From Nocardia sp. BMG111209 (GTDB taxonomy: Bacteria; Actinomycetota; Actinomycetes; Mycobacteriales; Mycobacteriaceae), in the NCBI RefSeq assembly GCF_000381925.1, contig NZ_KB907308.1, forward strand, positions 1,116,001-1,180,000: DNA of 64,000 bases, in the 5' to 3' direction. How positions within the stretch are numbered: position 1 is the first letter of the stretch; each line of letters opens with the position of its first letter. A program made the translations under genes and the position numbers. Of this stretch, positions 12,186 through 14,943 are shown one piece after another. The notes below the pieces were generated by a model, which saw only the letters and a program-made list of their open reading frames with translations, had not been told where the DNA came from and ran no database searches.

Positions 12186-12827
12186 ATGATCGCGACCTAT
12201 GGACACCACAGTTTCGACGCGCTCGGTGACGATGTGCGCCAATCGAATCGGACCGCGGCACCGGCCATCGAGGTGGGCGCCGCGGCGGGGGCCGGGGCGA
12301 CCCCGATCGCCGCGTTCGACGCGGCGTTGCGCGATCTCGGCGTGGGCGACGCGAATCTGATCCGGTTGTCGTCGGTGATCCCACCGCGGGCGACCATCGA
12401 ACGGACCCGCCGGGTGCGCAAACCGATCGTCTGGGGCGATCGGCTGTACTGCGTCTACGCCGCCGGGTACGCCGCCGAGCCGGGGGCGCGCGCCGCCGCC
12501 GGACTGGGCTGGACATTGCAGTCCGATGGCTCCGGCGCCGGGCTGTTCGTCGAGCACGAGGGCGAAACCGCAAGGGAGGTGGACGATCTCATCCATGCCA
12601 GCCTCGCGGACATGACCGCCGGCCGGCCGCAGCGCTTCGGTCCGGTACGCACCTGCACGATCGAGGCGCGGGCCGACGGGCGACCGGTGTGCGCACTGGT
12701 CCTGGCCGCCTACGCCACCGCGGGCTGGGGCGAACCGGCGCTCCGGGCCGACGCGGCGGCCTGCGCGGACACCGGCGGCCGAAGATTGCTCGGCCGCAAC
12801 CGTTCCGGCGGCCGGAGCCGGTCGTGA
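12186..12827 (+). CDS. Pyruvoyl-dependent arginine decarboxylase-like protein
   Basis: A 213-residue protein resembling PvlArgDC, the self-cleaving enzyme that turns arginine into agmatine. The hallmark is the segment AAFDAALRDLGVGDANL followed by IRLSSVIPP. In the family, backbone cleavage between two residues at this place (here Ser62-Ser63) makes a small beta chain and an alpha chain whose new N-terminus becomes the pyruvoyl cofactor. The family is usually 150-195 residues; this one has a C-terminal Arg/Gly-rich extension. The start is set by GGGAAGGA six bases upstream. Its stop overlaps the GTG of the next gene (GTGA), so translation is coupled. Activity on arginine is inferred; relatives can act on other amino acids. 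Confidence 0.8.
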   Translation: MIATYGHHSFDALGDDVRQSNRTAAPAIEVGAAAGAGATPIAAFDAALRDLGVGDANLIRLSSVIPPRATIERTRRVRKPIVWGDRLYCVYAAGYAAEPGARAAAGLGWTLQSDGSGAGLFVEHEGETAREVDDLIHASLADMTAGRPQRFGPVRTCTIEARADGRPVCALVLAAYATAGWGEPALRADAAACADTGGRRLLGRNRSGGRSRS

Positions 12828-13423
12828 CGGCCGGCGCGGAATATTCGGTCGCCGCCGCGGCGATCCACGTCGGCATCGAGACCACGATCCCCGATGCCGA
12901 GATCGATGCTTTCCATCGGCTGTACGAGACCGCGTTCGGCCCGTTGCGCACCCGGGCAATTGCACGGCAAGTCTTGTACCGCAACGAGTTTCACGAAGAG
13001 ATGACCGACCCCCGGGTGCAGAAACATGTGGCCCGGACCACCGGCGGCACCCCCGTGGGCCTCAGTACCCTGACCCGGCACCTGGAGACGGTGCCGTGGA
13101 TCAGCCCGGACTACTTCGCAGCACGTTTTCCGTTACACGCGGCCCGCGGCGCGATCTATTATGCCGGATTCACATTGGTCGACCCGACCGCGCGACAGGG
13201 CACGGCATTTCATGCCATGATCACTTCGATTGTCCGGATCCTGGCGGCCGAACGCGCGGTCGTCGGCTGGGACATCTGCTCGTACAACAACTCTCGTTTT
13301 TCGTTCGCCGATGCGCTGCGAGCAGCGCTCGATGAGCAGGCGGATGCTGACGTCGCGGTGGAGGACGCACAAACCTACTACGCGGCACGGTTCACAGGGG
13401 ACTACGTGGACAAGGGGGGCTGA
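12824..13423 (+). CDS. GNAT-like acyltransferase
   Basis: A 199-residue protein starting at the GTG inside the GTGA overlap with the decarboxylase stop. The fold pattern looks like an N-acyltransferase. An N-terminal helix pair with FHRLYETAFGPLRTRA leads into a strand-turn region GGTPVGLSTL, then a strand-helix unit YYAGFTLVDPTARQGTAFHAMI in the place where GNATs hold acyl-CoA. The usual R/QxxGxG/A loop is not clear, so the donor could be something other than acetyl-CoA. Coupling to the decarboxylase suggests that it acts on agmatine or a related amine, but that is inference. The stop overlaps the next ATG by one base. Confidence 0.6.
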   Translation: MTAGAEYSVAAAAIHVGIETTIPDAEIDAFHRLYETAFGPLRTRAIARQVLYRNEFHEEMTDPRVQKHVARTTGGTPVGLSTLTRHLETVPWISPDYFAARFPLHAARGAIYYAGFTLVDPTARQGTAFHAMITSIVRILAAERAVVGWDICSYNNSRFSFADALRAALDEQADADVAVEDAQTYYAARFTGDYVDKGG

Positions 13424-14943
13424 TGGCAGCCGACGGACATCGCACCGATCGCAACTGGTGCCGAACCAGGTCGCCCTGGTGGGCGACCACGCCCGTCCTG
13501 ATCCTGGCGGTGATCACGGTGCCGCTGGCGGGACGGCCGCTCGCGCTGGTGGCCATGCTCGTGGTGGTGGCCGCCACGCTGGCGATGATCTGTACCGGGG
13601 TGCACCGCCATCGGCCGCCGGCCCCGGTGGCGTGGTTCCTGCTCGCGGCCTCCTCGGTCCTGTTCTGCGTCGGCACCACGCTGCGCGACTTCCTGGAGTG
13701 GCCCATACCGCCGCCGCTGGCCGATCTGTTCACCCTCGGGGGGTACGTGGGTGTCGGTGCGGCGGCGGTGCTGTGGCTGGTGCCGCGGCGCACCTTCCAC
13801 ATCGATCTGATCCTGGATTCCTGGCTGATCGGACTGGGCGCGCTGCTGGCCTCCTGGACCTTCCTGATCTCCCCGGTCCTGCACGCGGCGCGGGTCTTCG
13901 ACGGGCCCACCCTGATCCGGGTGACCTATCCGATCGTCGACGCGCTGCTGCTGACGGTGGTCACCCATTCGATGGTCACCGCCGGGCGTTCGGAGACCTC
14001 GCTGCGGCTGGTGCACAGCTGCCTGCTGACCGTGCTCGCCGGCGATCTCGGCTACAACCTCGACGCCGCCGGATATCTCACCCTCGGCCCGAATCTGCTG
14101 CTCATCCCCGAACTGCTGGCCTTCCTGCTGGTCGGCCTGGCCGCATTGCATCCGACCATGGTCACCGTCGGGCAGCCGCGGCACATCCATCCGCATCAGT
14201 CCCGGCAGCGGGCCAGCTTCATCGCGGTACTGCTGGTGGTGGCCTCACTCGGGCCGGTGGTCGGGGCCAATCTCGACACCCTGGATCGCGCGGTGGTCTC
14301 CGCACTGCTGGCGGTACTGCTCGTCGGCGTGCTGGCCCGCAGCGAGCGCGCGGTCGTGCGTAGTCTGCGCAGCGAACGGCGGGCCCAGTACCAGGCCGAT
14401 CACGACCTGCTGACCGGCCTGGCGAACCGGGCCGCGCTGCTGCGCGCACCCAGGGTGTACGCGGACCGCTGGGCGGGGCGGCCGCTGTGCCTGTTGTTCC
14501 TCGACCTCGACGGATTCAAGGCCATCAACGACACCCACGGCCACGCCGTCGGCGACGAGTTGATCGCCGGCGCCGCGGACCGGATCCGCCACGTGATCGG
14601 TCACGACGATCTGGCGGCCCGGTACGGCGGCGACGAATTCGTGGTGCTGGGCTGTGCGAACCGGCAGGAGTCCGCGATTCTGGCCGAGCGGCTGCTCGCC
14701 GCCTTCCGGGAACCGTTCGAACTCACCGCCGGCCCGGTATCGGTGGCCACCAGCATCGGGATCGCCTGCGACGCCCCGCGCAGTGCCGACGACACCGTGT
14801 ACGACCTACTGCGCGAGGCGGATTCGGCGATGTACCACGCGAAGGAGTATTCGCTGGGGTACGTGTTCTACGACGACATCCGCCATCTCGGCCATGCGGC
14901 GGCGGGCAGCCGGCGCAACTGGCGGCGGGAGACCGCGGTCTAG
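13423..14943 (+). CDS. Membrane diguanylate cyclase (GGDEF)
   Basis: A 506-residue protein with about nine N-terminal membrane helices (residues about 20-320) followed by a GGDEF domain. The active-site loop RYGGDEF is intact at residues 402-406, and FLDLDGFKAINDTHGHAVGD holds the metal and guanine ligands. The domain should condense two GTP to cyclic di-GMP. The RxxD inhibitory site that normally lies just before the GG(D/E)EF loop is absent (GHDD), so feedback inhibition at that site is unlikely. No EAL domain is present. The ATG overlaps the previous stop as TGATG, so this is the third gene of a coupled operon. The sensor ligand is unknown. Confidence 0.92.
   Translation: MAADGHRTDRNWCRTRSPWWATTPVLILAVITVPLAGRPLALVAMLVVVAATLAMICTGVHRHRPPAPVAWFLLAASSVLFCVGTTLRDFLEWPIPPPLADLFTLGGYVGVGAAAVLWLVPRRTFHIDLILDSWLIGLGALLASWTFLISPVLHAARVFDGPTLIRVTYPIVDALLLTVVTHSMVTAGRSETSLRLVHSCLLTVLAGDLGYNLDAAGYLTLGPNLLLIPELLAFLLVGLAALHPTMVTVGQPRHIHPHQSRQRASFIAVLLVVASLGPVVGANLDTLDRAVVSALLAVLLVGVLARSERAVVRSLRSERRAQYQADHDLLTGLANRAALLRAPRVYADRWAGRPLCLLFLDLDGFKAINDTHGHAVGDELIAGAADRIRHVIGHDDLAARYGGDEFVVLGCANRQESAILAERLLAAFREPFELTAGPVSVATSIGIACDAPRSADDTVYDLLREADSAMYHAKEYSLGYVFYDDIRHLGHAAAGSRRNWRRETAV

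Follow-up and report, generated by a model that had tools for sequence, protein, structure and literature searches.

A GNAT-fold protein between a decarboxylase and a membrane diguanylate cyclase in Nocardia: a candidate synthase and receptor of a small-molecule signal

What could bring together, in one operon, an enzyme that decarboxylates an amino acid, a protein with the fold of an acyltransferase, and a membrane protein that makes cyclic di-GMP? The question is raised by three successively overlapping plus-strand genes in a 64,000-nucleotide stretch of DNA from Nocardia sp. BMG111209 (the window; its Nocardia-like genome, with the operon on contig 2, is called G000 here). In order, the genes encode a decarboxylase of the PvlArgDC family, a GNAT-like protein, and a GGDEF-domain cyclase. 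By the GNAT gene, the nearest named relative is Nocardia aurantia (93% identity). One answer, to which we give an even chance of being right, is that the operon encodes both the synthase and the receptor of a small-molecule signal, an acyl-amine made by the decarboxylase and the GNAT-like protein and read by the membrane cyclase.

According to this proposal, the PvlArgDC-like protein would cleave itself and decarboxylate an amino acid (probably arginine) to give an amine (probably agmatine), onto which the GNAT-like protein would move an acyl group from acyl-coenzyme A (acyl-CoA) or acyl carrier protein. The acylated amine would bind to the GGDEF protein at its polytopic membrane domain, ligand binding would alter the output of the diguanylate cyclase, and cyclic di-GMP would report the level of the signal. 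The source of the signal may be the cell's own kin or, if the molecule crosses the envelope, its neighbours. In relatives of the module, the output of the sensor would be either cyclic di-GMP or a phosphorelay. Four elements of this scheme are ones we infer: the action of the GNAT-like protein on an amine, the acyl group, the identity of the product with the ligand, and the departure of the product from the cell.

The evidence that carries the proposal lies outside Nocardia. The GNAT family is present in 19 of 394 genomes of the class and in 18 of 396 genomes of the phylum (G000 and G018 among the latter). PvlArgDC is present in 12 of the class genomes, in all 12 directly beside the GNAT gene (G000 is one of the 12, and in G018 the pair is 21 bases apart). 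Of 37 loci from outside Nocardia, 35 have a sensor gene within about 2.5 kb of the GNAT gene. Of these sensors, 24 have the same membrane domain as the window's cyclase, with a GGDEF, GGDEF-EAL, or PAS-kinase output, and the remaining 11 are another histidine kinase. The two exceptions are L119 and L073, the contig of the latter stopping 208 bases upstream of the GNAT match. As for decarboxylases, 13 of the 37 loci carry PvlArgDC and 12 carry a lysine/ornithine-type enzyme dependent on pyridoxal phosphate (PLP), fused in three cases to the GNAT protein. What stays constant in this module, which is scattered through the Actinomycetota, is the GNAT-like protein, and the functional link among the module's genes is strong. 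The genome samples were drawn and are not complete, loci within one family are not independent, and the species of three named loci (L072, L073, and L075) may also be represented among the drawn genomes. Because gene calls by a simple composition rule missed several genes, the counts were made from profile and BLAST matches.

The arrangements differ from family to family. In the Nocardioides-type families (f29, f44, and f47), a PvlArgDC-GNAT pair stands behind a membrane PAS-histidine kinase, and a response regulator directly follows the GNAT gene in seven of the eight loci L103-L110 and also in L072 and L075. In f13, the GNAT gene and then the decarboxylase gene lie head to head with the gene of a membrane GGDEF-EAL protein, in which PAS, GAF, and EAL domains were recognized by eye. 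In f11 and f42, the GNAT gene is tail to tail with a gene for a membrane GGDEF-EAL protein, with no decarboxylase match, and in f69 and f87 it is beside a gene encoding the same membrane domain with GGDEF. EAL was confirmed by Pfam in the two f69/f87 proteins scanned (L191 and L193) and elsewhere was called by eye or by motif. The GNAT gene follows a PLP decarboxylase gene in f18, where the member in L119 is closest to a solved lysine/ornithine decarboxylase (2plj, 5e-67), while f62, f76, f83, and f68 combine PLP decarboxylase, GNAT protein, and histidine kinase. Three f62 genomes also carry, beside the PLP decarboxylase-GNAT pair, a conserved protein of 358 amino acids (L195:8667-9743, L196:8542-9618, and L197:2789-3865) with a dinucleotide-binding-like start, YGAGMSGMVAAWNL.

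The nature of the enzymes beside the GNAT gene may say something about its substrate. PLP decarboxylase and GNAT protein share one open frame in L203, L205, and L207 (Pfam-scanned in one of them, and less certain in L205, whose contig is short and contains N bases), and three decarboxylase-GNAT entries of 602-604 amino acids are present in the protein database. In all, the GNAT family adjoins three unrelated decarboxylase families: PvlArgDC, the PLP type, and S-adenosylmethionine decarboxylase (AdoMet_dc). The third partner is found within Nocardia, both in G000 (L082) and in another genome of the genus (L162): a paralog of the GNAT protein (28% and 27% identical to the window's, respectively) is encoded with 18 bases between it and an AdoMet_dc gene. 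The assignment is by Pfam (PF02675) in L082, and the L162 counterpart is 81% identical. In L082 (L082:5009-8887, about 2615744-2619622 of G000:C1), the genes ahead of the paralog encode an aldehyde dehydrogenase and a class-III aminotransferase, and the gene of a PucR-type regulator is divergent. The fusions and the three unrelated decarboxylases together suggest an amine as the substrate of the GNAT protein, and the loci that have only the GNAT gene and a sensor suggest that its product is the ligand.

Are the sensors themselves related? By hhalign, the window's membrane domain is homologous to that of the PAS-kinase partners (E 4.5e-11) and to that of the GGDEF-EAL partners (6e-35), and these two are homologous to each other (5e-15); ten reversed or unrelated membrane sequences, used as controls, gave nothing better than 6e-4. 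The sensors of f69 and f87 join the same group. No such homology was seen for the other histidine kinases: six of their seven-transmembrane (7TM) kinase domains, compared with the three linked groups, gave hhalign probabilities of at most 0.3%, and HisKA_7TM (PF16927), found in three of the four scanned of the 11 other kinases, had no Pfam match in the window's GGDEF protein. The membrane domain is present in 0 to 6 copies per genome in 22 genomes (1 to 6 in the 17 with a linked locus). The profiles used (A1-A3) were built from linked loci, and linked copies therefore rank first by construction. Since the membrane domain is low in copy number and the GNAT family is rare, their repeated adjacency is not expected by chance.

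Phylogeny points the same way. In a phylogeny of sensor domains, 29 of them linked and 20 non-linked, the linkage label needs 3 changes (starred branches force at least 2), as against a mean of 15.8 when labels were shuffled, and none of 500 shuffles was as low as 3. The tree holds 20 of the 24 listed non-linked copies and 5 Nocardia copies, and it omits a match of 47 residues and the receptor-only Nocardia cyclases of G003 and G051. The window's sensor belongs to a clade of 17 rows (support 99/99), every row of which is linked, to GNATs from different clades. On the GNAT tree (43 rows, with L073 and most of Nocardia left out), a single clade (92/87) takes in the rows beside PvlArgDC, from Nocardia, Nocardioides, and f13 alike, and its members are paired with three sensor lineages. 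The conflict between the two phylogenies, while linkage persists, shows that partners have been exchanged. Both the 35 of 37 loci and the label changes indicate that independent lineages have a putative synthase gene in linkage with the gene of a membrane receptor.

The properties of the individual proteins bear on the chemistry. The window's decarboxylase scores 88.8 bits against PF01862, well over the curated cutoff of 22.7, and five of its residues (D45, N57, S62, S63, and E123) are at least 97% conserved across 55 family members. D45, N57, and E123 align with the catalytic Asp, Asn, and Glu of the M. jannaschii enzyme 1n2m. The protein is evidently a member of the family, and its substrate is probably arginine. 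The product of such an enzyme might feed the making of putrescine, but agmatinase was over its cutoff in only 2 of the 12 PvlArgDC-bearing genomes tested (G000 among them), with a weak match in three more, and agmatine deiminase was over its cutoff in none of the 12, with one match below it. Given this scarcity, the two enzymes are not merely the first steps on the way to putrescine.

The GNAT-like protein of the window has no match in Pfam or NCBIfam scans, though a homolog (L195:5995-6570) matches PF00583 at 31.1 bits (cutoff 20.7). Its AlphaFold2 model, with a mean predicted local distance difference test (pLDDT) score of 85.6 from 23 aligned sequences, has the GNAT fold. The top match in the PDB is NatD, a protein N-terminal acetyltransferase, but many other GNATs match nearly as well, and so the fold does not reveal the substrate. 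Also among the matches are the LuxI-type enzyme TofI (3p2h, 2.2e-4) and FeeM (2g0b, 2.8e-4), which resemble the window's protein to this extent but rank with generic GNATs and show no special kinship. LuxI-type and FeeM enzymes use acyl carrier protein and are not known to have a CoA loop. Five polar residues are invariant in the family (R48, E55, D150, D181, and Q183) and would fit an active site.

The original prediction is borne out in its description of the locus: a PvlArgDC-like protein with a Ser62-Ser63 motif (now matched to PF01862 and aligned with 1n2m and 2qqd), a GNAT-like middle protein, and GTGA and TGATG overlaps between the genes. It had given the GGDEF protein nine helices; the GGDEF domain and its intact motif stand, but the model has ten main helices. 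The motif is intact as well in 78 of 79 GGDEF-matching frames in loci L001-L081. The inhibitory RxxD site is absent from the window's cyclase, its arginine replaced by glycine (GHDD), and is present in 48 of 78 GGDEF frames of the same loci.

Within Nocardia, the arrangement recurs. The original prediction would have failed if the three genes were not conserved together, and they are adjacent in 26 of 31 loci (the exceptions being the paralog L002 and L028-L031, which lack the decarboxylase) and likewise in 42 of the 50 loci fetched (the contig of L069 breaks off within the cyclase gene). The eight exceptions among the 50 are three non-Nocardia loci without this GGDEF protein and five from Nocardia in which the GNAT gene is degraded. 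Of the 42 Nocardia loci, 41 have the start of the cyclase gene overlapping the stop of the GNAT gene, and a GNAT start giving a 4-base overlap with the decarboxylase stop is available in 37 of the 42. In 59 Nocardia genomes, the cyclase was matched in every one and the GNAT protein in 33, in 27 near full length and in 6 as fragments. A decarboxylase match in G017 (6e-4 over 76 residues, on another contig) was taken as noise, lowering the count of decarboxylases from 27 to 26. Within the sample, loss takes both enzymes at once, one case apart, and spares the cyclase. Partial or decaying GNAT genes lie just upstream of the cyclase gene, with no intact decarboxylase, in L028-L031, L074, L077-L080, L163, L165, and L167 (L077 retaining a decarboxylase fragment, L028 a full GNAT gene, and the match in L167 being weak, E 0.001). 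As read from these remnants, this is parallel loss of the enzymes with the putative receptor retained.

Several of the observations weigh against the proposal. An intact pair, PvlArgDC with full-length GNAT, is present in only 26 of the 59 Nocardia genomes (G017 having the GNAT gene alone), and the other 33 keep the cyclase without it, so the cyclase does not always depend on the enzymes. An enzyme-less cyclase fits a receptor listening to the signals of others, but it fits equally a cyclase with some other input. It follows also that the all-linked clade describes the rows of the sensor tree and not the lineage, as the omitted receptor-only Nocardia cyclases are orthologs expected to fall within it. 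Outside Nocardia, no decarboxylase match is found in the stretches of 12 of the 37 loci, the L119 stretch has no sensor match, and neither have the AdoMet_dc paralog loci L082 and L162 (the latter starting 0.7 kb from a contig end). Amine binding might have been ascribed to the membrane domain's invariant Asp residues, but these are about equally frequent in 20 copies not linked to GNAT; they are general to the sensor family and lend no support to such binding. On the side of the enzymes, the decarboxylase falls below the cutoff of TIGR00286, the NCBIfam equivalog that asserts arginine as substrate (61.5 against 106.95 bits), so arginine is likely but not proven. G000 itself has two agmatinase matches over the cutoff, and agmatine may serve another use in some carriers, given the agmatinase and deiminase matches. 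G054 has a second PvlArgDC (L228:3842-4486) with a twin-arginine-like N-terminal leader, RRSFLVVGG, away from that genome's only GNAT match; this copy may be exported. Finally, the CoA loop, in GNATs Q/R-x-x-G-x-G/A, is altered to RQGTAF in the window's protein and to Q-x-x-G-x-F in some relatives, so that the acyl donor may be either acyl-CoA or acyl carrier protein. The idea of the original prediction, that the two enzymes make an acyl-amine read by the cyclase, thus comes out favoured by the linkage of GNAT gene and sensor, the three decarboxylase families, and the fusions, but with the missed cutoff, the altered loop, and the 33 Nocardia genomes that keep the cyclase without an intact enzyme pair counting against it.

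Could the same genes be held together by something else? Perhaps the ligand of the sensor is the amine in its free form (agmatine, putrescine, or another polyamine), and acetylation by the GNAT protein lowers the amine and ends the signal. The gene linkage would be the same, and both Dpa (PMC10267138) and MbaA (PMC8079147), as those sources summarize them, provide precedents. However, a decarboxylase-GNAT fusion would then make and destroy the amine in one protein, and the 12 loci with GNAT gene and sensor but no decarboxylase match make the GNAT product the likelier shared ligand, though not decisively. We consider this alternative unlikely, though not far-fetched. The original prediction had also allowed that the operon could link polyamine status to cyclic di-GMP, and it may indeed do so. 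It is improbable, in our estimate, that the operon serves ordinary polyamine metabolism and includes the cyclase by chance or by loose co-regulation. Each protein does come from a large family, and the two agmatinase matches of G000 lie elsewhere in the genome, but such an account must contend with PvlArgDC beside GNAT in every carrier, a sensor near nearly every GNAT gene outside Nocardia, and the few carriers with agmatinase over its cutoff.

The GNAT-like protein might instead have nothing to do with an acyl-amine. That NatD is its best fold match could mean that it acylates a protein (the sensor, for example, or a ribosomal or regulatory protein), the decarboxylase having a linked but separate polyamine function. 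To this we give a similarly low probability, as other GNATs match nearly as well, the fold is silent on substrate, and three kinds of decarboxylase and their fusions would go unexplained. Or the protein may be a maturation or CoA-sensing partner of a pyruvoyl decarboxylase, and no acyl-amine is made. PvlArgDC and AdoMet decarboxylase are pyruvoyl enzymes, both adjoin members of the GNAT family, and an altered CoA loop would suit a non-catalytic role; PanZ, which acts on PanD, is a precedent (PMC3496974, as summarized there). But a PLP decarboxylase, to which the family is also joined both as a neighbour and in fusions, has no pyruvoyl group to mature. A pyruvoyl partner is thus at hand with PvlArgDC and AdoMet_dc but not with the PLP enzyme, and in this respect the family does not conform to a PanZ-type maturation factor. 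The GNAT genes near a sensor with no decarboxylase match, and invariant residues that fit an active site, also speak against this alternative, which we regard as very improbable.

If the proposal of a signal synthase and its receptor is extended to the module as a whole, then acylated (poly)amines may constitute an undescribed class of cell-cell signals across the Actinomycetota, with a GNAT protein as the core of the synthase, interchangeable decarboxylases (pyruvoyl arginine, PLP lysine/ornithine, and AdoMet), and interchangeable receptors (acting through cyclic di-GMP synthesis, its turnover, or a phosphorelay). Many Nocardia would then be eavesdroppers, lacking the synthase. This extension is tentative, and we put its chances somewhat short of even. 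Were it true, bacterial communication would be enriched by a family of receptors and by signals of a further chemical class, and amino-acid-derived amines would be tied to cyclic di-GMP and two-component control in actinobacteria, for whose cyclic di-GMP enzymes few ligands are known. Orphan membrane GGDEF and histidine-kinase proteins would also gain a definite hypothesis about their ligand, and the exchange of decarboxylases and outputs around a fixed GNAT protein would amount to a natural experiment predicting the amine of each lineage.

The features of the operon are collected in Table 1. The genes around it are of varying constancy. A DUF6319 gene (window:14940-15947, minus strand) is convergent with the cyclase gene, overlaps its end, and is found in 40 of 42 loci. 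The transporter and membrane-protein genes upstream of the window's operon are found in only 2 of 42, and among the upstream genes, one (window:9545-11896, minus strand) encodes a 783-amino acid multi-helix protein with no Pfam match at 0.001, near the operon in only 2 of the 42. Farther downstream (window:15969-17799, minus strand) lies a gene for an oxygenase of the mpaB/rubber-oxygenase family (PF09995), overlapped by an upstream TetR regulator gene.

Table 1. Features of the three-gene operon, in coordinates of the window.
Feature	Position	Strand	Basis
PvlArgDC-family decarboxylase, 213 amino acids	12186..12827	+	PF01862 4.8e-25
Ser62-Ser63 codons, predicted self-cleavage site leaving pyruvoyl-63	12369..12374	+	Aligns to 1n2m positions 52-53 and 2qqd Ser-Ser; conserved
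GTGA overlap, decarboxylase stop / GNAT start	12824..12827	+	Window sequence
GNAT-fold protein, 199 amino acids, constant part of the module	12824..13423	+	AlphaFold2 model, PDB fold match, phylum-wide homologs
TGATG overlap, GNAT stop / GGDEF start	13421..13425	+	Kept in 41/42 Nocardia loci
Membrane GGDEF protein, 506 amino acids	13423..14943	+	PF00990 2.8e-35; ortholog in 59/59 genus genomes
Polytopic membrane sensor domain (putative), residues 1-318, ten main helices	13423..14376	+	AlphaFold2 mean pLDDT 86.5; homologous to GNAT-linked GGDEF-EAL and PAS-kinase membrane domains
GGDEF domain, residues 325-475, GGDEF motif intact	14395..14847	+	PF00990 2.8e-35, read from sequence

The original prediction knew of no system of this composition, and no description of the module was found in the open papers searched, but its parts have counterparts. 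The archaeal PvlArgDC of M. jannaschii (1n2m) shares with the window's enzyme the Pfam family, the cleavage motif, and the aligned key residues, but the window's enzyme does not reach the TIGR00286 cutoff, and its relatives in the actinobacterial class stand beside a GNAT gene without exception. PanZ is a GNAT-domain protein that activates the cleavage of PanD (PMC3496974), and so offers a likeness in a GNAT-domain protein working with a pyruvoyl decarboxylase; the Nocardia-type family, in contrast, also keeps company with, and fuses to, PLP decarboxylase. By its abstract, Dpa acetylates 1,3-diaminopropane and keeps it in balance, affecting motility and biofilm (PMC10267138), and by that description it resembles what is proposed for the Nocardia GNAT protein, as an acetyltransferase that modifies an amine and thereby behaviour, but the abstract names no linked sensor such as the Nocardia operon has. 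PanZ and Dpa exemplify the two chief alternative roles for a protein of this kind close to amines or to the enzymes that act on them. In the NspS-MbaA system, MbaA reads polyamines in the periplasm and controls the dispersal of biofilms (PMC8079147, in summary). Here too an amine signal would be tied to a GGDEF-type membrane protein, but the Nocardia operon carries putative enzymes to make the ligand, and its sensor is a ten-helix membrane domain. In its working, the operon would resemble CqsA/CqsS, an autoinducer synthase and a membrane receptor histidine kinase (PMC3285556, as summarized there), in that a dedicated signal synthase is paired with a membrane-bound receptor. The Pfam families of the three window proteins are other than those of CqsA and CqsS, the putative synthase of Nocardia would consist of a decarboxylase and a GNAT protein, and the output in the window is a diguanylate cyclase.

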